This document shows positions 1 to 32,410 of a DNA stretch of 32,774 bases, piece after piece. The notes under the pieces are model-generated. The model was not told where the DNA came from. It worked only from the letters and a program-made list of their open reading frames with translations, and searched no databases. The stretch is from Oscillospiraceae bacterium. Lineage in GTDB: Bacteria > Bacillota > Clostridia > Oscillospirales > Oscillospiraceae. The stretch covers positions 1 to 32,774 of the forward strand of contig JAFWVB010000130.1 in assembly GCA_017518445.1 (NCBI GenBank), read 5' to 3'. The translations under genes were made by a program, and so were the position numbers. Every line of letters begins with the position of its first letter. Positions within the stretch are counted from its first letter, which is position 1.

Positions 1-3000
1 ATAGCCGGAGCCGTTGGGCTGATAGAAGGTCTCATAGCTCGGAGTGCATGTGCCGTGATTGCCGTCTACATTGTAGTACACAACAACTTCATACATATCC
101 GCGATGCCGTCCGGACCATTACCGTCCGAACCGCCGCCGATGAAGTCCTCGAGCTTCCAAACAGCGTAGAGTATCTTGTCGCCGGTGAAGTCGACGGTCT
201 CGCCGTCCTGGTACTGAACAGCGCCGTTCGCGGTCTCAGACCAACCCTCAAAGACATAGCCGGTCTTAGAGAAGCCGTTTCTGGTCAGAGCTGTCGGTAC
301 GCCGATCGTGATGGTCTGCGGAGCCATGCCGCCGCCTGTCGCACCGTTGCCGTTGAAGGTCACGGTGTACTGAAGCGCCTTCCATGTCGCCTTGACCGTT
401 ACGTCCTCATCGGGCATCTCGAAGCTCTTAGCGGTTTTCCACACGAGGCTCGTGGGAGAAACCGTCGTCCAGCCCGTGAACTCATAATACTGTCTGGTCG
501 GATCTGCCAGTGTGACAGTATCGCCATACTTCGCAGTCATCGGGTTGGTTGCTGCATTGGTGCCGTTATCAAGCTCATAGTTGATAGCGTGACTATTCGC
601 TTCCCAAACCGCGTAAAGCGTGATGGTAGCGTTTGCATTTGCGATGTTGTTGACGCTCGCCTTATCGCCGTATACCACACCGCCGGTCGCACTTGTCGCC
701 CAGCCCTTGAAGGTATGACCGGGCACACTGAATCCGATTGCGGTCAACGCGGTGGCTTCGCCGCGATTGATGGTCTGATCCGCCATCGTGCCGGTCGCGG
801 CAGCGTTGTTAGCGTCAAAATGTACCTTATAGGTATCGCGAGTCCACTGCGCCGTGAGCTTGACATTGCTTGCCGGCATCGTGAAGGTGGTGGCGTTAGC
901 CGCTACGGTCAGCGTGCTCGGATCTGCTGTCCAGCCTGTCAGCGTGTAGTTTGTCTTGGTCGGGGCTTTGAAGGTGACCGTTGTGCCGGCATTCGCCTTA
1001 GTCGGGTTTGCCGGTGTTACAGTGCCGCCGGCATAGTCCCAAGTGATGTTAAACTCGTTGCCCTTCCAAACCGCGTAGAGCGTGATGGTCTCGCCTGCTC
1101 TCGCAAGGTTCGTGACAGCCTGCTCATCGGTGTAGGCCCTCGTGCCTGTAGCGGTGGTTGCCCAACCGTCGAAGGTGTGACCTGTCCTGCTGTAGCTGTT
1201 CTTCGTCAGCTTGGTAGAAACGCCGATCTCGATCTTCTGATCAGCCATCGCAGTGCCTGTACCGTTGTTGGCATTGAACTTAACGGTGTAGAAATTGTCA
1301 TTCCACTTCGCGTACACGGTCGCGCCGCCCGCGGGCATCAGATCCGCGTCTGTAAGCGCCTTGGTGCAGGCAGAATCGGTGAACCAGCCGCCGAAGGTGT
1401 AATACTGCTTCGTGGGCGCCTTGTAGTTCGAAGCGGTCAGGAACGAATTCATCTTCGCACCCGTCGCTATCTGGAACGAGGACGCGCCGCCGGACGGGAT
1501 CGTGCCGCCCTGGGTATCAAGCGTAAGGGTCTGATTTGACGCCTTCCAGTTTGCGGTCAGCGTACCTGTGCCGGGGAGGGGATCGCCCATCTTGAAATCT
1601 TCAGCCGCGGTCGAACCCGTGCGGGTGAAGGTCCACTTGTCGAACTCATAACCGTTTTTGCCTTCGGTCGTGATGTTGAAGGACGAAGTGTCTGTGCCGG
1701 GCCATACATTAGGAATAGTCTGGTCGGCGGTTATCGCGGTTCCGTTGACTTTTATCGTACCCTTGCTCGTATCGCCAACCTCAACGGTAAGCGTTCCCTT
1801 GGCGATAAAGCCGACATAGATGCGGCTGTTATGCTCTCCGCCTACATTGCCCGGGTTCGGGAGCACGATATTCTTGGTCGACGCCACTGTCTGTGTCGCA
1901 GCGTCGGTCACGACCGCGTCGGAGTCGGTCATATAACCGCTGGTTGCGTCATAAGCTATCTGCTTTGTGAAGCGCACGTCGCTCGTAGCTCCGGGCAGGG
2001 TGAACCTGACGACGTAATTGTTCGCGTTGGCAAGACCGTTGAAGGCATATTTGCCGCCGCCGGCTGTCGTCTTTGTATCAAGTAGGTTCGTGCCCTGGAG
2101 AAGCTCTACCGTGACGCCGTCGCGCGTGGTATCCGTGCCGGCGGTGTACTTGCCGTCACCGTCGACGTCGTTGAACGCGATACCGGAGATAGTCGCCATC
2201 GCAAGTCTTGCGGCGACCCAGCCGGAATCTTTATATCCGTCTCCGTCGGGAGTTTGTCTGAAAATACGGACACGGAACTCGTTCATCGCGTTGTTGAGTC
2301 TCTGGTTCTGGTCGACCTGCGCATCGGTGACGTTGACCGTCAGCGGGAGCTGGAATGTCCACTCGTCTTGTATCGGGATGTTCTTCGTCGAAACGATTCC
2401 GATCATCGTGACGGTGCTGAGGTCTGCCGGAGCCGTGGTCGAACCGGCGGTCGTCGGGACGCCGTTAGCGTCGAGCGTGACCTTGCCGGTGTAATACACG
2501 AACTGGAACGGATTCGTGGTTGCGTCGCCCACCTTGAGGGTCGGCGCTCCGGCGAGCTTCATCGGCCAGTTGTACGCCTTATACTGATAGTGGTCGTACT
2601 GAGCGTCGGAAGCGGGATCCGTGAGCGACGTGAAGACTGCGTTTGAATCGAACGTGCCGCTCGGTATCGGGATGTATGTCTTCGCGGCGTAAGTGCCGGA
2701 AGCATTTTTGAAGGTGTTTCTGATCGTTACGTTGTAGTAGACGTTTGCGCCCGGCTTGAGTGCGACGACGTTGCCGTTCGTGCCGGCGTTATGGTTGCCG
2801 ACAGGCTCGGACATTGCCGCGTCCTTCGAGAGGGTCACAAAAGCGCTGACCGTCTCTGCGTTCGAAACGAAGATATTTCTGCCATTGCTGACAAACGCGT
2901 TCATTTCGGTCGTGTCGCCGTTGCCGTTTAAATCAAAAACGTCAGGATTATTATTCGAGCTTGAATATTGGGTAGCGGCAAAGTCCGGTCTGCCCAAAAA

Positions 3001-5262
3001 TGTCAATTTGCCAAGGTCAAAGTTGCCGGTGGGATAGTTATCGTCGAAACACAAATCACCGTAAAAGTAAACTCTGGTTCTGGGCATATATCTGCCTGCG
3101 CTGTCAATAGTGGTCAGGCGTGTTTTGTCCGCCCAGAGCTTGTAAACGGTGTATTGTTCACCATTATATGTGATCGGGGTAGCCAGCGGATCTGCGTGGA
3201 CGAGCGACTGCGGGATGTCCGCGGCATTAACGCCGCCGGAGCCGTTGTCGGTCGTGGTGTAGGTCTGCCCGTCGATATTGTAGGTACAGGGGCGCTCGGT
3301 CCAAAACTTCGCGGTGACGTTTTCAAGCGATACGCCGGTAGGCAGAACTACTTGAATGACCTGTTCTTCAATTACACCTCTAAGTCCGCCGCCGAAGTTA
3401 GCCGCAAAGATCACACTTCCGCTCTCCCCCTGTGCGATGGAGGCAGGACCACCGAAGGCAAGAGCACTGTATCCAGCGCGGTTCTTTTCACCACGCAAGT
3501 AGAACTTCAGGTTGGTCGTCTTGGGTGTTGTGCTGTTAACGGGACCGACAGTGACCGTAAAGGCACTCTCGGTATTTTTGGTGGGGTCGGGGTCAACCGC
3601 GGACGCCTTGAAGTTTCCGGTGATACAGCCGCCAAGATTTCCGTTGTTAGCGGATGTAACATAGTCGGCGCTGAACTTGCCGCAGTTTGCCTCTATGCTT
3701 GTGATGTATAGGTTCTCCGAAAGGAAAGAGTTTTTATCGTGCAGAGCGCCGACATTGACATACGCATGCTGGGACGGAGCGTTGTATCCGTAATGCGTCT
3801 CCGTCGCCCATGTGGAGTAGGTGTATGTCTGGTTGTTGCTGAGCGTGACCTTGAGGTCTTTGAGCTCGCTCGTCAGTGTCGTGTCAAGCGGGAAAGTTAC
3901 GCCCTTTACCTCTACCTCGGGACCGAAGTCGAATTTTACGACCTGATCCTGGTCAACGGCGCCGTTTGCCTTAAATAAGACTGAAGCCAACACGTCGACA
4001 GTACCCCTGTCGTTTGTGGGGTTATTGCTAAGATAGCTACTGCTGTTTGTTGAATTGTTCACTGTAAGGTCGTTTGTATTCGCGCCTATTGTGGTCTTTT
4101 CATGAGTATATACGAGATAATCGGACTCTGTCAAGACGGTGCCGTCATACATCGTCGCTTGGATAGACAGACCATTATCATACTGACCTTCAGTGATGCC
4201 GTCAGCGATGTCACCGAAAATAGAGTAGTCAAATGTATTAGGTTTAGTCAACTCATAAAACTTATCGACTTCTACGGTAAAAGTATGAGTTGTGGCGTCC
4301 CAAGTCCAGTATGTGTTCGGCAGTTCTTCATTCTGGGTTCCTGTTTTTTCATTGTAGAATTTCACGGACGAAACTTTCGACACATACGGCAGGGTCAGCA
4401 CCTGCTTCATTTTTTTAACAAAGCCGGATCTCAAGTTCATGCCGTAGTAGTTTTCCGGACCGGTGTTGCGTAAAATCTTTACGTTTTTCGCGCCGGCAAC
4501 GTGAGAGCCGCCGCGAAGTTCCTTCCAACTGTTCCAGTCGCTCCATACGCCTATGGGATCTGTCTCGCGTATCGTCACATCTCCGGCGGCGCTGGTTTTC
4601 ACAGGTGTATTGCCGGAGGCGCCAACCTCATAAAGCTCTACCTTCAGGAAGTCGGTTACCTTGTCGCCGTCGTATGCGATAACTTGATGCGGCCGGATAG
4701 CGAGACGATCAGTTAAGCAGGTGGACGCTGTATTACCAGACGCGATGTGGTAGTCAAGGATACGGTAGTCGTCGCTTATATCAGCGCTCGTACCGTTATC
4801 GTCATAGTAAATGTCCATGCCGTCGATGAACTGGTCAATGCCTAACTGGTCAACATTGACCCAGTTCATGCCTTGAGTCCATGTAAACCAGCGATTCGTA
4901 TTACCGGCAGCATTTTTATAGGAATACTCAGCCGGCAGCAATTCGTCGATGTTAGTGCCGTTCCAGTTGCCGTTCGCGCGCGGCGCCATCGTGAAGATGA
5001 ACGGCTGCTTCAGCGCGATATGGATTATGTAATCCTTATTTAAATCCAGACCGGACCATGAGATGTTCAAGGCCTTGGAGCCTTGGTCATTTGAGCTGGT
5101 ATTCCAGTCGCCGCCGCTCCAGCCGCTGACGCCCACGTTGAGCTGCTCGCCCGCCGCACGCGCGTTGATCTCGAATACCGGCATGATGGACAACACCATG
5201 ACGAGCACGAGAAGCAATGCCAGCGGCTTTTTGAGCCATCGGCTTGTTTGCGTGTTTTGCAT
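1..5262 (-). CDS. Giant secreted surface protein with SdrD-B-like domain and InlB/Flg_new repeats, partial
   Basis: The minus frame is open from the ATG at 5260-5262 to the left edge (1754 codons, no stop), so the C-terminus is missing. An AAGGAG site lies about 10 bases upstream. Residues 1-36 form a signal peptide (KK, a long Leu/Val core, cleavage near ARA-A). Residues 40-1000 are a long region I do not recognise, with a DUF11-like stretch near 805-900. Residues about 1020-1150 resemble an SdrD B domain (GIAFNDVDGDG start). From about 1150 there are at least six Listeria-Bacteroides (Flg_new/InlB B) repeats, starting near 1243, 1323, 1403, 1475, 1559 and 1632, with recurring FxGW and LYAVW motifs. 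A GNGPDGIADMYEVVVYY segment near 1715 looks like the lead-in to a MucBP- or SHIRT-type domain. Such proteins are usually adhesins. The wall anchor (SLH, LPXTG or other) is outside the window. Function as an adhesin is inference. Confidence 0.9.
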   Translation of the reverse strand, partial: MQNTQTSRWLKKPLALLLVLVMVLSIMPVFEINARAAGEQLNVGVSGWSGGDWNTSSNDQGSKALNISWSGLDLNKDYIIHIALKQPFIFTMAPRANGNWNGTNIDELLPAEYSYKNAAGNTNRWFTWTQGMNWVNVDQLGIDQFIDGMDIYYDDNGTSADISDDYRILDYHIASGNTASTCLTDRLAIRPHQVIAYDGDKVTDFLKVELYEVGASGNTPVKTSAAGDVTIRETDPIGVWSDWNSWKELRGGSHVAGAKNVKILRNTGPENYYGMNLRSGFVKKMKQVLTLPYVSKVSSVKFYNEKTGTQNEELPNTYWTWDATTHTFTVEVDKFYELTKPNTFDYSIFGDIADGITEGQYDNGLSIQATMYDGTVLTESDYLVYTHEKTTIGANTNDLTVNNSTNSSSYLSNNPTNDRGTVDVLASVLFKANGAVDQDQVVKFDFGPEVEVKGVTFPLDTTLTSELKDLKVTLSNNQTYTYSTWATETHYGYNAPSQHAYVNVGALHDKNSFLSENLYITSIEANCGKFSADYVTSANNGNLGGCITGNFKASAVDPDPTKNTESAFTVTVGPVNSTTPKTTNLKFYLRGEKNRAGYSALAFGGPASIAQGESGSVIFAANFGGGLRGVIEEQVIQVVLPTGVSLENVTAKFWTERPCTYNIDGQTYTTTDNGSGGVNAADIPQSLVHADPLATPITYNGEQYTVYKLWADKTRLTTIDSAGRYMPRTRVYFYGDLCFDDNYPTGNFDLGKLTFLGRPDFAATQYSSSNNNPDVFDLNGNGDTTEMNAFVSNGRNIFVSNAETVSAFVTLSKDAAMSEPVGNHNAGTNGNVVALKPGANVYYNVTIRNTFKNASGTYAAKTYIPIPSGTFDSNAVFTSLTDPASDAQYDHYQYKAYNWPMKLAGAPTLKVGDATTNPFQFVYYTGKVTLDANGVPTTAGSTTAPADLSTVTMIGIVSTKNIPIQDEWTFQLPLTVNVTDAQVDQNQRLNNAMNEFRVRIFRQTPDGDGYKDSGWVAARLAMATISGIAFNDVDGDGKYTAGTDTTRDGVTVELLQGTNLLDTKTTAGGGKYAFNGLANANNYVVRFTLPGATSDVRFTKQIAYDATSGYMTDSDAVVTDAATQTVASTKNIVLPNPGNVGGEHNSRIYVGFIAKGTLTVEVGDTSKGTIKVNGTAITADQTIPNVWPGTDTSSFNITTEGKNGYEFDKWTFTRTGSTAAEDFKMGDPLPGTGTLTANWKASNQTLTLDTQGGTIPSGGASSFQIATGAKMNSFLTASNYKAPTKQYYTFGGWFTDSACTKALTDADLMPAGGATVYAKWNDNFYTVKFNANNGTGTAMADQKIEIGVSTKLTKNSYSRTGHTFDGWATTATGTRAYTDEQAVTNLARAGETITLYAVWKGNEFNITWDYAGGTVTPANPTKANAGTTVTFKAPTKTNYTLTGWTADPSTLTVAANATTFTMPASNVKLTAQWTRDTYKVHFDANNAAATGTMADQTINRGEATALTAIGFSVPGHTFKGWATSATGGVVYGDKASVNNIANANATITLYAVWEANSHAINYELDNGTNAATNPMTAKYGDTVTLADPTRQYYEFTGWTTVSPTSLVWKTAKSFEMPDEDVTVKATWKALQYTVTFNGNGATGGGMAPQTITIGVPTALTRNGFSKTGYVFEGWSETANGAVQYQDGETVDFTGDKILYAVWKLEDFIGGGSDGNGPDGIADMYEVVVYYNVDGNHGTCTPSYETFYQPNGSGY

Positions 5263-24064: not shown

Positions 24065-25552
24065 TTATAACGCTTCATGCGAGTTAAGCGGCAGTTTTAC
24101 GGTCGCCAGAAGACCGCCGCCCTCCGCGTTATGCAGTACAAGCTGTCCGCCGTGGTATTTTACTATCTCGTCGCACACGGCGAGCCCTATGCCGCTTCCG
24201 CGCTCCCTCGACTGACCCTTGTAGAATTTCATCTTCACTCTGTCGAGCTCGTCCTCCGGCACGCCGGGTCCGAAATCGCGTATGCTTATCGACACCCACT
24301 GGCTGTCGAGTCCCATAGAAACGATTATGCGCTTGCCGTCCCTGCCGTATTTCGCCGCGTTGTCGAGCAGGTTCAAAAAAACCTGCTTTAACCGCTCCGG
24401 ATCGCCGTCCACGAGCGGAAGCTCCTCCTCATAAGGCTCGTAAACAAGCTCTATCTCGTCCTGCTTCAGCAGCTCGCGGTATGTGAATATCGAGTCCTCG
24501 AGTTCCACGCCGACGTCTATCTTTTCGACGTTCAACGTGAACCGCCCGTCCTGCATACGAGTAAATTCCAGAAGCTCCTCGACCATCTTAGTGAGGCGGC
24601 GCGCCTCCTTCAATATTATGCTGATACCGCGCCGCGTCTCGCCGTCAAGATTTTCGCCGTAGCTCAGCGTCTCGCCCCAGCCGGTTATCGCCGTAAGCGG
24701 CGTTCGCAGCTCGTGTGAGACGGATGATATGAACTCCGTCTGCATTTTTTCGGTCTGGCTGACCTTAGACGACATCTCGTTTATCGTGTCGACCATTACG
24801 CCGATCTCGTCTTGATACGATTTCGTTATCTGTATGCCGTAGCTTCCGGCGGCGATACGGCGCGTTATCTTCGTGATCTCCCTTATCGGGTCGACGACGG
24901 AGCGTATAAAGAACATACCGACGAATATCATCAGCACCACAACGAATACGCCGGCGAGCGAAAGCAGTGCTATCGCCTTTGTTATCTCCCTGTCAACGAG
25001 CTTTAAGCTCGTCACATATCGCATAACACCGAGCACCTGCCCGTTCGCGTTTGCATACGTCACGGGCGCGCTGACGGCGAGTATATGCTCACCCGTGCCC
25101 TTGCTGTAGCCGCGCCAGTGCGACATTTCGCCCGTGCTGAGCGCGTCTGCGACGTCCTTCGTGTCCGGCGCAAGTCCCGCACGTATCGCGTAGGACGAGA
25201 CTACGACCCTGCCCGTGCTGTTTAGAAACTGCAGCTCCATGCTGTTGGCGTCCTGAAACGACTCCGTATATCCGTATGCCGTGTCGTAATATCCGGCGCT
25301 CGTCTCCGACATATATCGCGAGACAAAATCCGCCGCCGCCTTAGCACGGTATTCCATGTTAGTCAAAACCGTCGTGTTGTAATAGTTGTATATGACGATC
25401 GAGATCGTACAGACGAGCACAACGATTATAACGGCGAGCGGCAGTATGGCATTGAGCACCCACCGCAGCGTTATGCCGCGCAGCCCTTTTAATATCTTGC
25501 CCTCTTCGTCCTCCGCCATATCCGACGGATTGCCGTCAAGTATATCGTCCAT
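24065..25552 (-). CDS. Membrane sensor histidine kinase
   Basis: A 495-residue PhoR/ResE-type kinase. The ATG at 25550-25552 is preceded by GAGGTGA at 5 bases; the GTG three codons earlier overlaps that site. Layout: cytoplasmic tail, membrane helix 33-55, extracellular sensor region 56-190 (Cache-like, with a SHWRGYSKGTGEHILAVSAP stretch), helix 193-216, HAMP 217-270, HisKA with phospho-acceptor His280 (SVSHELRTPL), and HATPase_c about 375-490 (N box LLDNAAKYG, G1 RDFGPGVPE, G2 GSGIGLAV). Its partner regulator is the gene just upstream (35-base gap). The ligand is unknown; the neighbouring lipoprotein is a candidate input (inference). Confidence 0.95.
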   Translation of the reverse strand: MDDILDGNPSDMAEDEEGKILKGLRGITLRWVLNAILPLAVIIVVLVCTISIVIYNYYNTTVLTNMEYRAKAAADFVSRYMSETSAGYYDTAYGYTESFQDANSMELQFLNSTGRVVVSSYAIRAGLAPDTKDVADALSTGEMSHWRGYSKGTGEHILAVSAPVTYANANGQVLGVMRYVTSLKLVDREITKAIALLSLAGVFVVVLMIFVGMFFIRSVVDPIREITKITRRIAAGSYGIQITKSYQDEIGVMVDTINEMSSKVSQTEKMQTEFISSVSHELRTPLTAITGWGETLSYGENLDGETRRGISIILKEARRLTKMVEELLEFTRMQDGRFTLNVEKIDVGVELEDSIFTYRELLKQDEIELVYEPYEEELPLVDGDPERLKQVFLNLLDNAAKYGRDGKRIIVSMGLDSQWVSISIRDFGPGVPEDELDRVKMKFYKGQSRERGSGIGLAVCDEIVKYHGGQLVLHNAEGGGLLATVKLPLNSHEAL

Positions 25553-25587
25553 ACGTCTCACCTCGCCTTCGTTGTAGTATCAGTCTG

Positions 25588-26274
25588 TCAGAAGCCCCAT
25601 TTATATCCGTAACCCCAGACAGTCGTTATGTACGTCGGATTTGTCGGATCGTCCTCGACCTTTATTCTGAGGCGGCGTATATTCACATCCACTATCTTCA
25701 GCTCTCCGAAGTAATTTCTGCCCCACACCGCGTTGAGTATATCCTCGCGCGAGAGCGCCTTTCCGGGGTTGTCCATAAACATCTTCATTATCGAATACTC
25801 TACCTGCGTCAGCTTTATGCGCTGTCCGTCCTTTTCGAGCGTTCTGTTGCGAACATTCAGCCTGAACGGTCCGCTCGTTATCTCAGCCGCCTCCTCCGAG
25901 ACGTCTCCGCCGAGCCTGCGGTAGAGCGCGTCGATGCGCGCCGTCAGCTCGGTCGGTGAAAATGGCTTTGTAACATAGTCGTCCGCTCCCGTCATTAGCC
26001 CCGTGACCTTGTCCATCTCCTGCGTCCGCGCGGTGAGCATTATTATGCCTATCTTCGAGTCTGTCGCCCTTATCTGGCGGCAAACCTCAAAGCCGTCTAT
26101 ATCCGGCAGCATTATATCGAGCAGCGCGACCCTTATATCGGGGTTTTTGCGGAGCTGCTCAAGCGCCTCCGCGCCGGTCGCCGCCTCTATCGGCTCATAG
26201 CCGGAACGCTTTAGATTTATTACGACAAAGCTCCTTATGCTGGCTTCGTCCTCGAGAACAAGTACCTTTTTCAT
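25588..26274 (-). CDS. OmpR/PhoB-family response regulator
   Basis: A 228-residue transcription factor. The receiver domain (1-115) has the acidic pair E8/D9, the phospho-acceptor Asp53 (LLDIMLPDIDG) and Lys103 (VTKPFSP). The DNA-binding winged helix spans about 130-228 (LTQVEYSIMKMF, LNAVWG, VDVNIRRLRIKVED, and YITTVWGYGYKW at the end). AAGGAGGGG lies about 8 bases before the ATG. It is 16 bases behind the lipoprotein gene and ahead of the sensor kinase, so the three form one unit. Target genes cannot be read from this sequence. Confidence 0.97.
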   Translation of the reverse strand: MKKVLVLEDEASIRSFVVINLKRSGYEPIEAATGAEALEQLRKNPDIRVALLDIMLPDIDGFEVCRQIRATDSKIGIIMLTARTQEMDKVTGLMTGADDYVTKPFSPTELTARIDALYRRLGGDVSEEAAEITSGPFRLNVRNRTLEKDGQRIKLTQVEYSIMKMFMDNPGKALSREDILNAVWGRNYFGELKIVDVNIRRLRIKVEDDPTNPTYITTVWGYGYKWGF

Positions 26275-26290
26275 TCTGCGCCCCTCCTTT

Positions 26291-27619
26291 TTAAGTGTTC
26301 ACGTCTGAAAATATTATGTGGAAGCCGCCTGTGATCTCCTCCTCGTTGACGGATATGGGCAGCTTTTTCGCGCCGCCGAGTATCTCCTGCGCGAAAATCA
26401 CGTTATTTCTCTCCGCGAGCGCCTTTCTGCCGGACAGCATCGAGCGCTCCGTCCTGTTGTCGCCCGACAGCGCGTATATCGCGAGGAAATCTATCTCTCT
26501 TGCGTCGCCGTTCCTGTATGAGAATATCATCGTGCGCTCGCCCGATACGGAGGCGTCGCGCCGAACGGATATATTATCCGACCAGCCTTTCGGAAGCTCG
26601 AGATACCATCCGTCGGAATAATTGTGGTATGTCGTCTTTTTAAGCGTCCTGCTTCCGGCGGAGTCAAAGGCGTACCACTCTATAAGCCAGTAATTGCCGA
26701 CCTCAGGCTGACTCGGCAGCTTAACGGGATTAGGCACCTCGATCACGCCGTCCGTGTCTATGTCCGCGGACAATATACCGTATGTTCTGACGGTTCCCTG
26801 GCTCACGCCGCTCGCCGAACGCAGAGATACGTTTGAAAGCGCGCCGCGCTCATACGCCAAAATGTCCGTGACAAGGCTGCTCTCGTCTATCGCGCACTCG
26901 ATGAAAAGTCCGTTCACACCGTCGGACAGAGGACTGTATTTTATATTTGAAACCGCTCCGGCACCGGCGGACAGCCGCGCCGTGCCGACCTCTATATCGC
27001 CGTCTATAAGTGAATAAACCGTCGCCTCGCTCTGATTTTCACTCGCGCTCGGACCGACCGCAGCGACAGACGCGCCGTGCTCGCCCTTAAAGCAGCTTAT
27101 ATAAGCCGTGTAGCTGCAGCTGAAAAGCTGAACCACCTGATAGTCGACAAGCGAATAGCCCGCGAGCATGCTGACGCCGGACGCGATCTGCCAGCCCATG
27201 ATGATCTCATACATACCGTCGCCGTCCATGTCGAGATATTCTATGCTTTTTATGTCCGAGCCGGAGCCCTCTATGCCCGCCGCGCGCGTGTACGTCTCGC
27301 CGTCGTTTTCAAATATGGCGACCTTGAGCGGCATATCGTCGCCCGGCACGGCGTAGAACACGAGCGCCTCCTTCTCGCCGTCGGAGTCGATATCCTCAAA
27401 CTGCACCGCCTGCCGGTAAGAGCCCGACGTCGGCGCGGAGTACTCCGCCCCGGAGCTTAAAATCGCGTCTATCTCCCGCTGGAGCTGGACATATTCATCG
27501 CTGAGACGCGGCAGTGCGTAAAGCTCGTCCATCGATGTGTTGAAGCAGCCCGACATAAGCGGAAGCGCCATCGCCGCCGCGAGCAGGAGCGCCGCGTATC
27601 TTTTAAGCCTCATCCTCAT
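26291..27619 (-). CDS. Lipoprotein with FG-GAP/VCBS-like acidic repeats
   Basis: This 442-residue protein has a lipoprotein signal peptide with lipobox LMSGC (Cys25), so it should be lipid-anchored on the outer face of the membrane. Three DxDxDG-type loops followed by hydrophobic strands (DIDSDGEKEAL, YLDMDGDGMYEI, DIDTDGVIEV) resemble FG-GAP/VCBS beta-propeller calcium loops. I do not recognise the family further. It is the first gene of the unit with the response regulator and kinase, which suggests a role in sensing envelope or extracellular conditions (inference). Seven consecutive G separate the AAGGAGG site from the ATG on the coding strand. Confidence 0.88.
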   Translation of the reverse strand: MRMRLKRYAALLLAAAMALPLMSGCFNTSMDELYALPRLSDEYVQLQREIDAILSSGAEYSAPTSGSYRQAVQFEDIDSDGEKEALVFYAVPGDDMPLKVAIFENDGETYTRAAGIEGSGSDIKSIEYLDMDGDGMYEIIMGWQIASGVSMLAGYSLVDYQVVQLFSCSYTAYISCFKGEHGASVAAVGPSASENQSEATVYSLIDGDIEVGTARLSAGAGAVSNIKYSPLSDGVNGLFIECAIDESSLVTDILAYERGALSNVSLRSASGVSQGTVRTYGILSADIDTDGVIEVPNPVKLPSQPEVGNYWLIEWYAFDSAGSRTLKKTTYHNYSDGWYLELPKGWSDNISVRRDASVSGERTMIFSYRNGDAREIDFLAIYALSGDNRTERSMLSGRKALAERNNVIFAQEILGGAKKLPISVNEEEITGGFHIIFSDVNT

Positions 27620-27961: not shown

Positions 27962-30883
27962 GTGAGGGGAGAGTTAAAAGAGACAACCGATGCGAAAGGC
28001 AATGCTGTTAAACGGCGCCCATGGGTGTTTGTTTTGACAGGGGTTGCAGCTGTTGCTATCGCTGCCGGTGTTATCATTGGCGTCGCGAACAATAATAAGC
28101 GCGCTGAGAACACGGACAGGGATATAAACACAGAAAGTCTGGAAAACGTTGAAAACACGGATCCGGATATAACCCCTGAAAATCTTTCGTACATCAATGT
28201 CGAGCGGGATGTAGTAAAGAGCTCATGGGCGGTCACAGGCATCAGCAAAGCGGACGGTTCCGGATTTGCCGAGGCAAAAGATCAGTATATCGTATTTGAC
28301 GACGCAGACGTGCGTTATTACGAGAACGGCGAGCTTGTACTGAACTGTTCCTATCGTTTTGCCGACGAGTATACCATAGAGCTTGTTAATCGTGCTGACG
28401 TCAAGGATCAAAGGTCATGGCTTTTACAGGAATTAAAGCGGGATGACGGCAGCGAGATCACGATAACCGACAGCGCCGCGGATTTGAAGTATTATATCGA
28501 GCTTGCGCCGAATTTTGAAGATCCCGAGCTGGCTAAAAGAGTGACCATGGATTATTTGGACGGCTGGTGGCAGATGACGGAGACCGGTCTCTCCGGAAGC
28601 CGTGAAGCACTGGCTGACAACTGGATGTATTTCGCAGACGGCAGGATGTATTACTACGAAAACGGCATTCAGGTCACAGACAATGCGGTAAAGCTTGATA
28701 AAAAGACGCTGGTTATGACAAACGAGCTGTTAGGCGTCACTTTGTATTGGGAAGCCAGCAAAGAAGAAAACGGAGACGTGCTTTATAGGGATTCTTCCGG
28801 AATAGAGTATTACTGCACAAGAGGAAAGGGCTACAGCAGCTTAAAGCCGGAAGGCTTCTGGGAGATGTATGCTGTCAGTGTTGTCGACGGGTCAAATTAC
28901 TCATCTCTTTCCTCCTGCTATCTTGTATTTTCGGGAGACAGCTGTAAATACTATGTCGGCGGAAAGCTCACGACCGATAACACTTTCTATTGGCTGGACG
29001 ATTGGACGATCCATATTACCACACAGGACGGAACGACGGATGAATGGGTCATTATAGACCGAGGCAGCAACCGTGCAATTATCACGGGCAAAAACCGCAT
29101 GCTGGCTTATTATGTGAAGCGCACGTCGCCGATCGACTTTGACCCGAAAATTATAGGAGATCCTGTTTCCGATGAGGAGCTGCAGGGTGCATGGAATGTG
29201 CTCTCATGGAAGCTGCTTGACGGAACCCAGTACACGGAGCCGGAGGGATGGCAGTTCGTCTTTGAAGACGGAGCGATCAAGTATTACATAAATGGCGCTC
29301 TGGTCAATACGAACTCGTATTCATTTACCGATCCTACACACATGAAGCTTAAAACCATAAGCTCATACGACGGGAAAGGCGTCGGAGACACCACCACGTG
29401 GGAGCTCAAGATCAATGACGGTATTATCACAATCAAGGATAAAAATCTGGGATTGATCTACCGGATGAGTAAAGACGATACGGATCTGGGAGAGTCTGTT
29501 GATATAACCTCCGATATGCTCCAGGGCACATGGAAGGTAGTGTCATCTGACGCGGAAGGCTTCAATTCCGATAAACATTGGGCATTTACATTTGAAGGAA
29601 ACAATGCGACATTCAAAGGTGATAATACCTATCGGTACACTTATACACTGAAAGATAATGCAATAACCGCAGATCTCACAGGATATGATTTCCAGCAGGC
29701 ATGGAAACTGGCGCTTACTGAAGAGGGGCGGTTGACGATCGCAATAGGCGGTAACTATACGTACATTTGCGAGAAGGATTCCGGGGAGGAAAAACCGGAA
29801 GAAAAAACTTCCGCAGTCACCAATGCTGAGCTTGCCGGTAAATGGACGGGAAGCATCGGCGAGACCTACACCTTCGACGGAAAGGGCGCATGCAAGGTTG
29901 ACTTCACCGCGTCTCAATACCCGACGCTCGGAACCGCGGACTACACCTACACCCTTGACGAGACGACGGGCAAGGCGGTCGCCACTTATTCCGGCGGTAC
30001 CCAGAACTGGACCTTCACGAAGTCAGATGACGGCAAGATAACCATGAAGGTAGTCGAGACAGAATACAGTACGCCTCTCACAAAGGCTGAATCGGATCCG
30101 AAGGAAACAGATGACCCGAAGGAAACGAAGGTCATCACCAATGCGGATCTGACCGGCACTTGGACGGGAAGCATCGGTGAGACTTACGCCTTCGACGGCA
30201 AGGGCGCATGCAAGGTAGATTTCACGGCGTCTCAATACCCGACGCTCGGAACCGCGGACTACACCTACACCCTTGACGAGACGACGGGCAAGGCGGTCGC
30301 CACTTATTCCGGCGGTACTCAGAACTGGACCTTCACAAAGTCCGGCGACGGCACGATAACCATGAAGGTAGTCGAGACAGAATACAGTACGGCTCTCAAA
30401 AAGGCTGATAACGATTCGACACCGCCTACGACGCCTACGACGACGGCGACGACGCGCGCTACGATAGTGACGATGCTGTACCGCCTCGCGGGCGAGCCGG
30501 CAGTGAGCGGCACATATCCGTTTACCGATGTTGAGAGCGGACAATCGTACACCAACGCCGTTATTTGGGCGGCTGAAAACGGCATAGTGACCGGTTACGG
30601 CAACAATAAATTCGGCACAAACGCCGAGGTAACGCGCGAGCAGTTAGCGGTTATCATGTACCGTTACGCGAAGTACAAGGGCTATGACGTGAGCAACGCG
30701 GCAGATCTGAGCGGCTATACGGACGCTTCCTCGATCAGCTCATGGGCGCTTGACGCTATGAAGTGGGCGTATGCCGAGGAGCTCATCACCGGGCGCACGG
30801 AGACGACTCTCGCCCCGAAGGGCAGCGCGACAAGCGCCGAAGCCGAGGAGATACTCAATCGGTTTAGCGAAAAAGTGAAGTAA
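27962..30883 (+). CDS. Membrane-anchored surface protein: seven beta-rich W repeats fused to a truncated SLH module
   Basis: A 973-residue protein starting at GTG (27962-27964) with AAAGGGGG 8 bases upstream. A basic KRR and a single helix (21-42) should anchor or export it. Next come seven related domains of about 80-100 residues, each starting with a LxGxW motif and having tyrosine-rich strands, near 85, 199, 298, 407, 520, 623 and 730. They look like lipocalin-type beta-barrels (fold inference). Domains 6 and 7 are near copies. A Thr/Pro linker (about 816-828) leads to SLH sequence: only the end of a first SLH domain (TRATIVTMLYRLAGEP), then SLH at about 853-912 and 917-973. SLH domains bind pyruvylated wall polymers. 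The lipocalin-like part is more AT-rich than the SLH part. Ligand and role are unknown. Confidence 0.88.
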   Translation: MRGELKETTDAKGNAVKRRPWVFVLTGVAAVAIAAGVIIGVANNNKRAENTDRDINTESLENVENTDPDITPENLSYINVERDVVKSSWAVTGISKADGSGFAEAKDQYIVFDDADVRYYENGELVLNCSYRFADEYTIELVNRADVKDQRSWLLQELKRDDGSEITITDSAADLKYYIELAPNFEDPELAKRVTMDYLDGWWQMTETGLSGSREALADNWMYFADGRMYYYENGIQVTDNAVKLDKKTLVMTNELLGVTLYWEASKEENGDVLYRDSSGIEYYCTRGKGYSSLKPEGFWEMYAVSVVDGSNYSSLSSCYLVFSGDSCKYYVGGKLTTDNTFYWLDDWTIHITTQDGTTDEWVIIDRGSNRAIITGKNRMLAYYVKRTSPIDFDPKIIGDPVSDEELQGAWNVLSWKLLDGTQYTEPEGWQFVFEDGAIKYYINGALVNTNSYSFTDPTHMKLKTISSYDGKGVGDTTTWELKINDGIITIKDKNLGLIYRMSKDDTDLGESVDITSDMLQGTWKVVSSDAEGFNSDKHWAFTFEGNNATFKGDNTYRYTYTLKDNAITADLTGYDFQQAWKLALTEEGRLTIAIGGNYTYICEKDSGEEKPEEKTSAVTNAELAGKWTGSIGETYTFDGKGACKVDFTASQYPTLGTADYTYTLDETTGKAVATYSGGTQNWTFTKSDDGKITMKVVETEYSTPLTKAESDPKETDDPKETKVITNADLTGTWTGSIGETYAFDGKGACKVDFTASQYPTLGTADYTYTLDETTGKAVATYSGGTQNWTFTKSGDGTITMKVVETEYSTALKKADNDSTPPTTPTTTATTRATIVTMLYRLAGEPAVSGTYPFTDVESGQSYTNAVIWAAENGIVTGYGNNKFGTNAEVTREQLAVIMYRYAKYKGYDVSNAADLSGYTDASSISSWALDAMKWAYAEELITGRTETTLAPKGSATSAEAEEILNRFSEKVK
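29843..30408 (+). repeat. Tandem in-frame duplication inside the SLH fusion gene
   Basis: Two copies of a 248-bp segment lie at 29843-30090 and 30161-30408, with a 318-bp (106-codon) period. They are nearly identical at DNA level, including synonymous positions, which indicates a recent duplication or gene conversion. Confidence 0.9.
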
Positions 30884-30900
30884 AAAGCAATACACAATGC

Positions 30901-30934
30901 AAAAAACCGAGGTCAGTCATGACCTCGGTTTTTT
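30901..30934 (+). terminator. Terminator of the SLH fusion gene
   Basis: A perfect 15-bp stem with a GTCA loop ends in six T, 18 bases after the stop. Six A on the other side let it work on the minus strand as well. Confidence 0.93.
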
Positions 30935-30992
30935 GCCGTCCGCGGATATTTCAAACGAACCGGTTTGCAAGCTTTAATGTGGTGAGCACGAG

Positions 30993-31093: not shown

Positions 31094-31180
31094 TGGTGCC
31101 GGTGACCGGACTCGAACCGGTACGCTGTCGCCAGCGGCGGATTTTGAGTCCGCTACGTCTACCAATTCCATCACACCGGC
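31094..31180 (-). tRNA. tRNA-Leu (anticodon CAA)
   Basis: An 87-nt class II tRNA with acceptor GCCGGTG/CACCGGC, anticodon stem GCGGA/TCCGC with loop CTCAAAA, a long variable arm (CGCTGGCGACAGCG region), T loop TTCGAGT, discriminator A and encoded CCA. Confidence 0.96.
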
Positions 31181-31195
31181 GTTATTGACTCTGGT

Positions 31196-31224
31196 ATTAT
31201 ACAACACCCGACGGTAAATTACAA
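31196..31224 (-). promoter_or_regulatory. Promoter of tRNA-Leu
   Basis: Minus strand: TTGTAA (31219-31224), 17 bp, TATAAT (31196-31201), ending 15 bases before the mature tRNA. Confidence 0.78.
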
Positions 31225-31243
31225 GTGTTAATTGCGTATATAT

Positions 31244-31273
31244 AAAAAACGCGCCGACTACCGGCGCGTTTTT
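31244..31273 (-). terminator. Terminator of the 3D-domain gene
   Basis: A perfect 12-bp stem (31245-31256 with 31262-31273) is followed on the minus strand by a T-run, 18 bases after the stop of the gene at 31292. Confidence 0.9.
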
Positions 31274-31291
31274 ATAATACTTTAATGTATG

Positions 31292-32353
31292 TTATTTATC
31301 CGTGTCCACGACGTACACGAGCGCCTTTCTCGCGCCGTGCTGTATGCACTCGTCATAAGTGTCCATGAAAAGGTCAAGAATATTGTTCTTGACGCCCGTA
31401 TCGCCGACAAGCGCATAGCCGTAAGTCCATGTTCCGTCCGCGCCCGTGATATAGACAAGCGTGCCGAACGGCAGCACCGATGTGTCCGCCGCGACGATGC
31501 CCACACGCGCTTCCCTGCCGGTCGCGGTCAGATTTCCGGAGTGCGTGTACGCCGTGGCTATCATGTTGAGCTGGCGCTTATAAGCGTACTCGCTGCCGTT
31601 TGTCGCCTTGAGCGTCTTGTTCTCCGCGTCTACCTCAGACAGCGTTGCTATAGACTTGTCGCCCGTGGAATACAGCGGATCGACCGGATTTTCGACAACG
31701 CTCTCCGCGAGCACATCGCGCTCGCGCGCGACGCCGTCAACATATTTCACCATGCTCGTGACCTTTTTGGCGCCGTCGCGCCCCTCGATTATAAGCGCAG
31801 TCTCGTCCTCCGCCATGCTCGAGTCGTAGACATACATCGGGTGCGGGGCAACAGGCTCCGTAACCGTCTCCTCGACGTATTCAACATCAAATATTCTGAC
31901 GCCCATACCGTCGAATATCTCGGTTTCGCGGTCGCAGCTTATCTCTATCGCCGGCGTCATTTCAACGCCGAGGCTTGCAAGCAGCTCGCCCACCGTGACG
32001 CAGACCGTTCTGACCGTTCTGATCTCTCCGCCGCGCTTTACCGTAACGCTTTTCGCCCTTACGACCTCTACCTCTGCGTATCCGCCGTCGCCGTATTCCG
32101 TAACGATTATCTGATCCTTGTCGCGCATGACGATGCCCGCCTCCGCGACCGCGCTCTCCGCGCTGTCCTCTTTGCTGCTGATAACGAAGGTATCGTCTCC
32201 GTCGCTTATCCTATAAGTAGTTTCAGCATTCACGGAAAAGGAGCAAAACATTACGGAAGCCGCCAACATGCAGGCGTAAACGCCCATTCTCTTGAAGCGT
32301 CTTGCAAGCGCCTCGCCGAAAACGGCGAGCATCGCTCTCTTATCTGTTTTCAT
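31292..32353 (-). CDS. YabE-like secreted protein with DUF348, G5-like and 3D domains
   Basis: A 353-residue exported protein. The ATG at 32351-32353 has GGAGGA about 5 bases upstream, better than an ATG eight codons earlier. Residues 23-43 form a signal peptide or membrane anchor ending VNA. Two DUF348-like repeats lie at about 45-90 and 100-150, a degenerate G5 domain at about 155-228, and a C-terminal 3D domain at 264-350 with the three aspartates D318 (GDTG), D327 (ILDLFM) and D331. 3D-domain proteins resemble resuscitation-promoting factors and MltA-type transglycosylases, so it probably cleaves or binds peptidoglycan. In B. subtilis the relative YabE sits near rnmV and ksgA; neither is adjacent here, although upstream sequence is cut by the window edge. 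Confidence 0.92.
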   Translation of the reverse strand: MKTDKRAMLAVFGEALARRFKRMGVYACMLAASVMFCSFSVNAETTYRISDGDDTFVISSKEDSAESAVAEAGIVMRDKDQIIVTEYGDGGYAEVEVVRAKSVTVKRGGEIRTVRTVCVTVGELLASLGVEMTPAIEISCDRETEIFDGMGVRIFDVEYVEETVTEPVAPHPMYVYDSSMAEDETALIIEGRDGAKKVTSMVKYVDGVARERDVLAESVVENPVDPLYSTGDKSIATLSEVDAENKTLKATNGSEYAYKRQLNMIATAYTHSGNLTATGREARVGIVAADTSVLPFGTLVYITGADGTWTYGYALVGDTGVKNNILDLFMDTYDECIQHGARKALVYVVDTDK

Positions 32354-32410
32354 ACTTTCCTCCAAATAACGAAACAAATAGTTACAAAATATTACAATTA
32401 AGCAAGCGCC

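Follow-up and report, generated by a model that had tools for sequence, protein, structure and literature searches.

SLH trimers are a common bacterial wall anchor, and the roles of their three grooves are not settled. We used the groove rule for SLH trimers of Blackler 2018 (PMC6081394). In the complexes of P. alvei SpaA and B. anthracis Sap (PDB 6CWI, 6BT4, 3PYW) groove G2, formed by the Arg of SLH1, the Gly of SLH2 and the Trp of SLH3, is occupied, and SpaA binds in two grooves (PMC6081394). The protein described here belongs to the same SLH family, has the TRAE motif and aligns with SpaA and Sap at the G2 residues. However, while these proteins carry three complete SLH motifs, its SLH1 has only one third of the length and its G1 residues are gone. 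A second related system is OmpM of diderm Firmicutes, in which SLH likewise ties a membrane protein to the wall (PMC10628300). OmpM contributes one SLH per chain to a three-chain trimer and is an outer-membrane barrel, whereas the protein described here has its shortened trimer in one chain and its membrane segment at the N-terminus. A search of the open-access literature revealed no paper on incomplete, truncated or partial SLH trimers.

The window, that is the whole stretch of DNA analysed here (32,774 nucleotides), contains an intact fusion gene at positions 27962-30883 of the plus strand. It encodes 973 amino acids from a GTG start that directly follows a G-rich, ribosome-binding-like aaaggggg. 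Position and architecture agreed with the sequence-only reading. The protein starts with a hydrophobic stretch, followed by seven lipocalin-like barrels, a Thr/Pro linker, an SLH1 of which only the core-helix third is present, and complete SLH2 and SLH3. The hydrophobic segment (residues 20-42; 28019-28087, plus strand) holds the Kyte-Doolittle maximum of 2.54 (19-residue window), while the rest of the protein does not exceed 0.78. Inspection by eye revealed no clear signal-peptidase site in this protein and none in its closest homologue, L116. Judged by hydropathy and inspection rather than by a dedicated predictor, residues 20-42 are a probable uncleaved membrane anchor. Just 3' of the stop codon lies a perfect 17-bp inverted repeat (30899-30936, plus strand), which scored in a scan as terminator-like for the minus strand, whereas the T run of the plus strand falls inside the stem.

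The following neighbours were noted, all on the minus strand. A histidine kinase and a response regulator are encoded beside a lipoprotein-like FG-GAP protein at 24065-27619, divergent from the fusion gene. A tRNA-Leu(caa) and a DUF348-G5-3D wall protein follow directly 3' of it (31094-32377). At 1-5262 a surface protein of at least 1754 amino acids with six Listeria-Bacteroides repeats and InlB-type repeats is cut by the contig start. A search for direct repeats flanking an insertion beside the tRNA-Leu found none.

Between membrane segment and linker, the protein is built from seven repeats in tandem, each some 90-110 residues long and all on the plus strand. R1 (28199-28537), R2 (28538-28837), R3 (28838-29167), R4 (29168-29497) and R5 (29498-29797) are lipocalin-like, and R6 (29813-30109) and R7 (30131-30412) are DUF5640-like. 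R7 is a tandem duplicate of R6, with a 318-bp unit that recurs at 91% DNA and 87% amino-acid identity. DUF5640 (PF18692) matched the whole protein in three stretches with 36.6 bits against a curated cut-off of 28.5, but R6 and R7 taken singly reached only 21-23 bits. Single repeats gave weak matches to Lipocalin_4 (PF13648), META and the GH43 C-terminal lipocalin-like domain. The R1-R4 subfamily received no Pfam assignment above cut-off, and when PDB sequences were searched with a profile of the repeats, no significant match was returned. R4 was the one repeat modelled, and AlphaFold2 predicted for it an eight-stranded up-and-down barrel of the lipocalin-like (calycin) type (pLDDT 93.7). The best structural matches of this model were the Bacteroides lipocalin-like proteins 4gzv (Z 13.0 over 99 residues, 3.5 A), 4iab, 4i95 and 4qrl (Z 12-13), followed by potempin E (8ehc, Z 11.9); retinol-binding protein and nitrophorins scored lower (Z 9-10). 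Potempins are protease inhibitors, and the barrels might therefore accept protein as well as small-molecule ligands. The sequence-only reading had supposed a new family of ligand-binding repeats and had proposed structure prediction of single repeats as a check. With R6 and R7 matching DUF5640 and the R4 model returning a known fold, the idea of a new family finds no support: by profile match and model, the repeats are DUF5640/lipocalin-like domains of an already known kind, and no new fold is predicted. What sets the protein apart from DUF5640 and Lipocalin_4 proteins is the combination of seven tandem barrels with an SLH tail, besides R1-R4, which Pfam does not recognize above cut-off. Within the same order, some DUF5640 proteins are short and either lipoprotein-like or membrane-anchored (e.g., L058, L066), which agrees with a membrane-anchored ancestor. 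No paper on DUF5640 was found in the open-access literature.

Behind the barrels, a Thr/Pro linker with an ACG-rich tract (30413-30451, plus strand) ends in GCGACGACG. Directly after it, TRATIVTMLYRLAG aligns with the SLH1 TRAE core helix of Sap (PDB 6BT4) and of two SLH proteins encoded in the same genome, C122 and C128. This SLH1 remnant (30452-30517, plus strand) consists of the TRAE-type motif TRAT with Arg832, the core helix and a spacer. The first helix and the connecting loop (F.DV..W...GLMNG..F.PN), present in C122 and C128, are absent, and the tail is thus not a complete three-motif trimer as in SpaA or Sap. SLH2 (30518-30649, plus strand) and SLH3 (30716-30844, plus strand) were recognized by PF00395 with 50.6 and 35.6 bits (cut-off 20.8); the SLH1 remnant was not detected with this profile. 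Nevertheless, about 146 tail residues align to C122 at 76% identity, so that the match of the remnant is not due to chance. The alignment with C122, C128 and Sap bears out the earlier observation that the linker runs straight into the last third of an SLH domain, with two further SLH domains behind it. SLH2 keeps Gly878 (SLH-Gly29) and Arg892 (SLH-Arg43) and has Ser862 at SLH-Trp13, where its relatives have Trp or Tyr. SLH3 keeps Trp928 (SLH-Trp13), while Ser958 replaces the TRAE arginine (SLH-Arg43). Compared with C122, the changes at SLH2-Trp13 and SLH3-Arg43 are single-nucleotide differences (TGG to TCG and CGC to AGC).

A search for other genes with this SLH tail, as the sequence-only reading had suggested, led to C122 (L021/L039) and C128. 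C122 shares SLH2, SLH3 and the SLH1 core helix at 76-77% amino-acid identity and 80% DNA identity over 443 bp, including ACG codons at the position of the joint; the identity to C128 is 59%. In a 50-row tree C122 and the window tail form a pair with support 99/92. In contrast to the fusion protein, C122 has a full SLH1, as does C128, a signal-peptide-like N-terminus, no lipocalin repeats, and both the SLH2 Trp and the SLH3 Arg. The DNA homology ends inside ...GCG ACG ACG..., which encodes Ala-Thr-Thr of SLH1 in C122 and C128 and the linker end in the window, where GCGACGACG is common to both. On the 3' side, homology to C128 extends beyond the tail into a hairpin similar to that behind the fusion gene. 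The word common to both sides of the joint measures 8-9 nt and is compatible with end joining at microhomology. We also noted an orphan 45-aa frame (L118; G000:C46, 4144-4272) that resembles the SLH3 tail with 60% identity and is possibly debris of another SLH gene; as only this orphan piece is present, it was rejected as a second fused SLH3.

A joint within simple-sequence DNA, in a MAG that consists of 158 contigs, calls for caution, as a metagenome assembler might have joined two genes. We consider this very improbable. The shared word is shorter than usual assembler overlaps, the reading frame is kept, and the joint lies within a 32.8-kb contig that also carries recA, polA and cysS. In addition, the substitution in SLH3 fits that of other natural short trimers (see below). 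A different course of events would be the fusion of a whole SLH trimer, from which a later in-frame deletion between ACG tracts removed SLH1 except for its last third. The flanking ACG runs would promote such a deletion, and the short SLH1 domains of other proteins may themselves be deletions. However, no SLH1 remnant was found 5' of the joint, and a single event accounts for linker, joint and truncation together. A two-step history therefore appears unlikely, although by no means negligible. That a fusion captured part of a resident SLH module, as proposed in the sequence-only reading, is well supported by the donor-like paralogue C122, by an SLH-less homologue and by a break in composition.

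This homologue, L116, was the single close match when the genome collection was searched with the membrane segment and the repeats. It derives from the water buffalo rumen MAG RGIG8396 (G446; JAGAFN010000072.1) and is 75-77% identical to the window protein over most of residues 4-816, with the membrane segment and R1-R5 at about 77-79% and in the same order, followed by further DUF5640-like repeats. The recovered pieces have no SLH tail. The L116 contig stops inside the repeats. A second G446 contig carries repeats of the same kind and ends in TTYSTELTK and a stop codon, without SLH, where the window protein enters its linker; since the homologue is split over contigs C70 and C57, this end without SLH might be part of a different gene. 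Neither SLH (PF00395) nor the PF04230 pyruvyltransferase was found in G446, a MAG of unstated completeness. In the same searches G001 and G013 likewise gave no SLH and no PF04230 matches, and G004 and G008 gave no SLH-tail matches yet some PF04230 matches. In the window genome a PF04230 match is located at a contig end.

The G446 bacterium is only distantly related to the window organism: PolA is 47% and RecA 61% identical, which is roughly the between-family level in the order. Envelope proteins that share about 77% identity against this background suggest horizontal transfer. Apart from the window genome itself, the repeat part had no match among the 400 sampled genomes of the family, plasmids and phages. 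The composition points in the same direction. GC3 is 0.55 for the membrane segment and R1-R5, 0.70 for R6-R7, 0.72 for the SLH tail and 0.68-0.78 for the neighbouring genes, in line with the contrast between AT-richer repeats and a GC-rich SLH end noticed earlier. In G446 the same part has a GC3 of 0.44, near that of its neighbours proB and proA (0.45-0.48). The neighbours of L116 and of the window gene differ, and synteny as a sign of vertical descent was rejected. From these sequence comparisons, the front part was probably acquired horizontally, and the transfer would have run into the window lineage.

We then compared 171 SLH trimers in steps, with 63 rows followed by 69 further loci and 39 more. 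In the first set the TRAE arginine of SLH3 is absent only from the window protein and L090, the sole two with a short SLH1. In the second set a coarse text filter flagged six trimers without a normal SLH1, of which L152, L186 and L187 proved to be short on reading; exactly these three are without the SLH3 arginine. The third set was fetched after the prediction had been fixed. Here, three trimers are short (L224, L228 and L231), and the arginine is gone from two of the three but from none of the 36 full-length ones (p 0.004). Taken together, SLH3-Arg43 is lost in 7/8 short trimers and in 0/163 full-length trimers (Fisher p 1e-11, with rows treated as independent though they are related). The exception is L224 (G021:C23), which retains the arginine behind a short SLH1. 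The coupled loss of the SLH3 arginine in short trimers is, as far as these aligned sequences go, the new part of the finding. Judged by eye, other short-SLH1 proteins (L119, L259-L264) contain alpha/beta-hydrolase, 5'-nucleotidase-like, phosphatase-like, GH3-like and peptidase-like parts, and four of them have the short module directly behind a signal peptide.

The seven other sampled proteins with a short SLH1 raise the question of whether the window gene is an ordinary SLH protein that inherited an old and widespread subtype, with no capture at this locus. The 50-row tree implies seven changes of the short state, of which starred branches force at least four, and the placement of all short rows in one clade is rejected (AU p 0.02). 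Moreover, the window tail has the full-length tail of C122 as its sister. Inheritance of one old subtype is consequently quite improbable. The 171-row tree has few firm branches and offers only two independent pairs on starred branches, which are mostly concordant, with a sign test that is not significant. The sequence-only reading had named homologues with the same short first SLH across many species as an observation that would speak against it. The outcome is divided: homologues of this protein do not show the short form, but seven unrelated proteins do, which makes the trimmed SLH1 more noteworthy rather than less.

To place the groove residues we used the register to Sap 6BT4. The G2 set of the window protein is complete (Arg832, Gly878, Trp928), and the G2 residues are kept in all eight short trimers. 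In contrast, all three G1 residues of the window protein are lost, including the SLH3 arginine. The SLH2 Trp13, also a G1 residue, is lost in 6/8 short but only 7/163 full-length trimers. Where short rows show letters at the Gly29 and Trp13 positions of SLH1, these are spill-over of the alignment, because this region is absent. The SLH3 arginine normally threads under the SLH1 loop that is missing here; removal of the loop leaves the arginine without its place in G1 and G2 untouched. A rule of pure ligand-site decay is weakened by two observations. Full-length trimers without the SLH1 Gly29 keep the SLH3 arginine in 3/3 cases, and SLH2-Arg43, which lines G3, is kept in 8/8 short trimers although its SLH1 Trp partner is gone. 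Both favor a structural interlock over decay of the ligand site. We infer from the residue pattern that the short trimers are one-groove SLH anchors.

Alternatively, the tail might be a decaying passenger. The fusion would then have destroyed SLH1 and with it folding and binding, the Trp and Arg losses would be relaxed drift, and the protein would only be a membrane-anchored barrel array. Two groove residues are indeed lost, two-thirds of SLH1 are gone, and the window tail has slightly more unique amino-acid changes than C122 (17 vs 9). An AlphaFold2 model of the tail, with three sequences in the alignment, gave no confident fold (pLDDT 43). However, the losses in the window are confined to G1, and the short form recurs on separate branches. 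On the window branch of the tail 27/44 changes are nonsynonymous, below the neutral expectation of 75% (5% quantile 66%) and similar to the C122 branch (19/30). The SLH tail is under purifying selection, and we regard a passenger in decay as unlikely. A recurrent and selected minimal SLH anchor might then be at hand, in which SLH1 consists of the core helix alone, the polymer is held via G2 only, the interlock predicts that SLH3-Arg43 is freed, and wall binding is gained from a gene fragment. We put this general reading forward tentatively and just short of calling it probable.

For the locus itself, the following course is proposed. A membrane anchor with tandem barrels would have arrived by horizontal transfer from a lower-GC lineage, kin to the rumen bacterium that apparently lacks SLH; this step is strongly suggested. 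It would have been joined illegitimately at an ACG microhomology, between the linker and the Ala-Thr-Thr codons of a C122-like SLH1, with only the core helix included; the position of the joint can be read directly, and the mechanism is the presumed part. The product is a shortened trimer with the G2 residues and without any of the three G1 residues, the meaning of which for the grooves is drawn from the SpaA and Sap structures. A trimer that retains only G2 leads us to propose a single-groove hold on the wall polymer. The C-terminus would sit on pyruvylated secondary wall polymer via this one groove while the N-terminus stays in the membrane, and the seven barrels would span the inner wall, probably for small or peptide ligands. 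That the gene encodes a chimeric envelope protein of a gut-type bacterium, combining a transferred front, a captured SLH tail and a one-groove wall hold, is as a whole chain rather probable in our view, though well short of assured.

The gene would thus show legibly how a protein from outside acquired a surface tag of its host via a short shared codon repeat. The missing loop of one groove, together with the matching loss of an arginine on separate branches and the complete conservation of the G2 residues, amounts to a natural evolutionary experiment. For SLH trimers in general, the short form suggests that G2 is the essential site and may offer a small candidate anchor.
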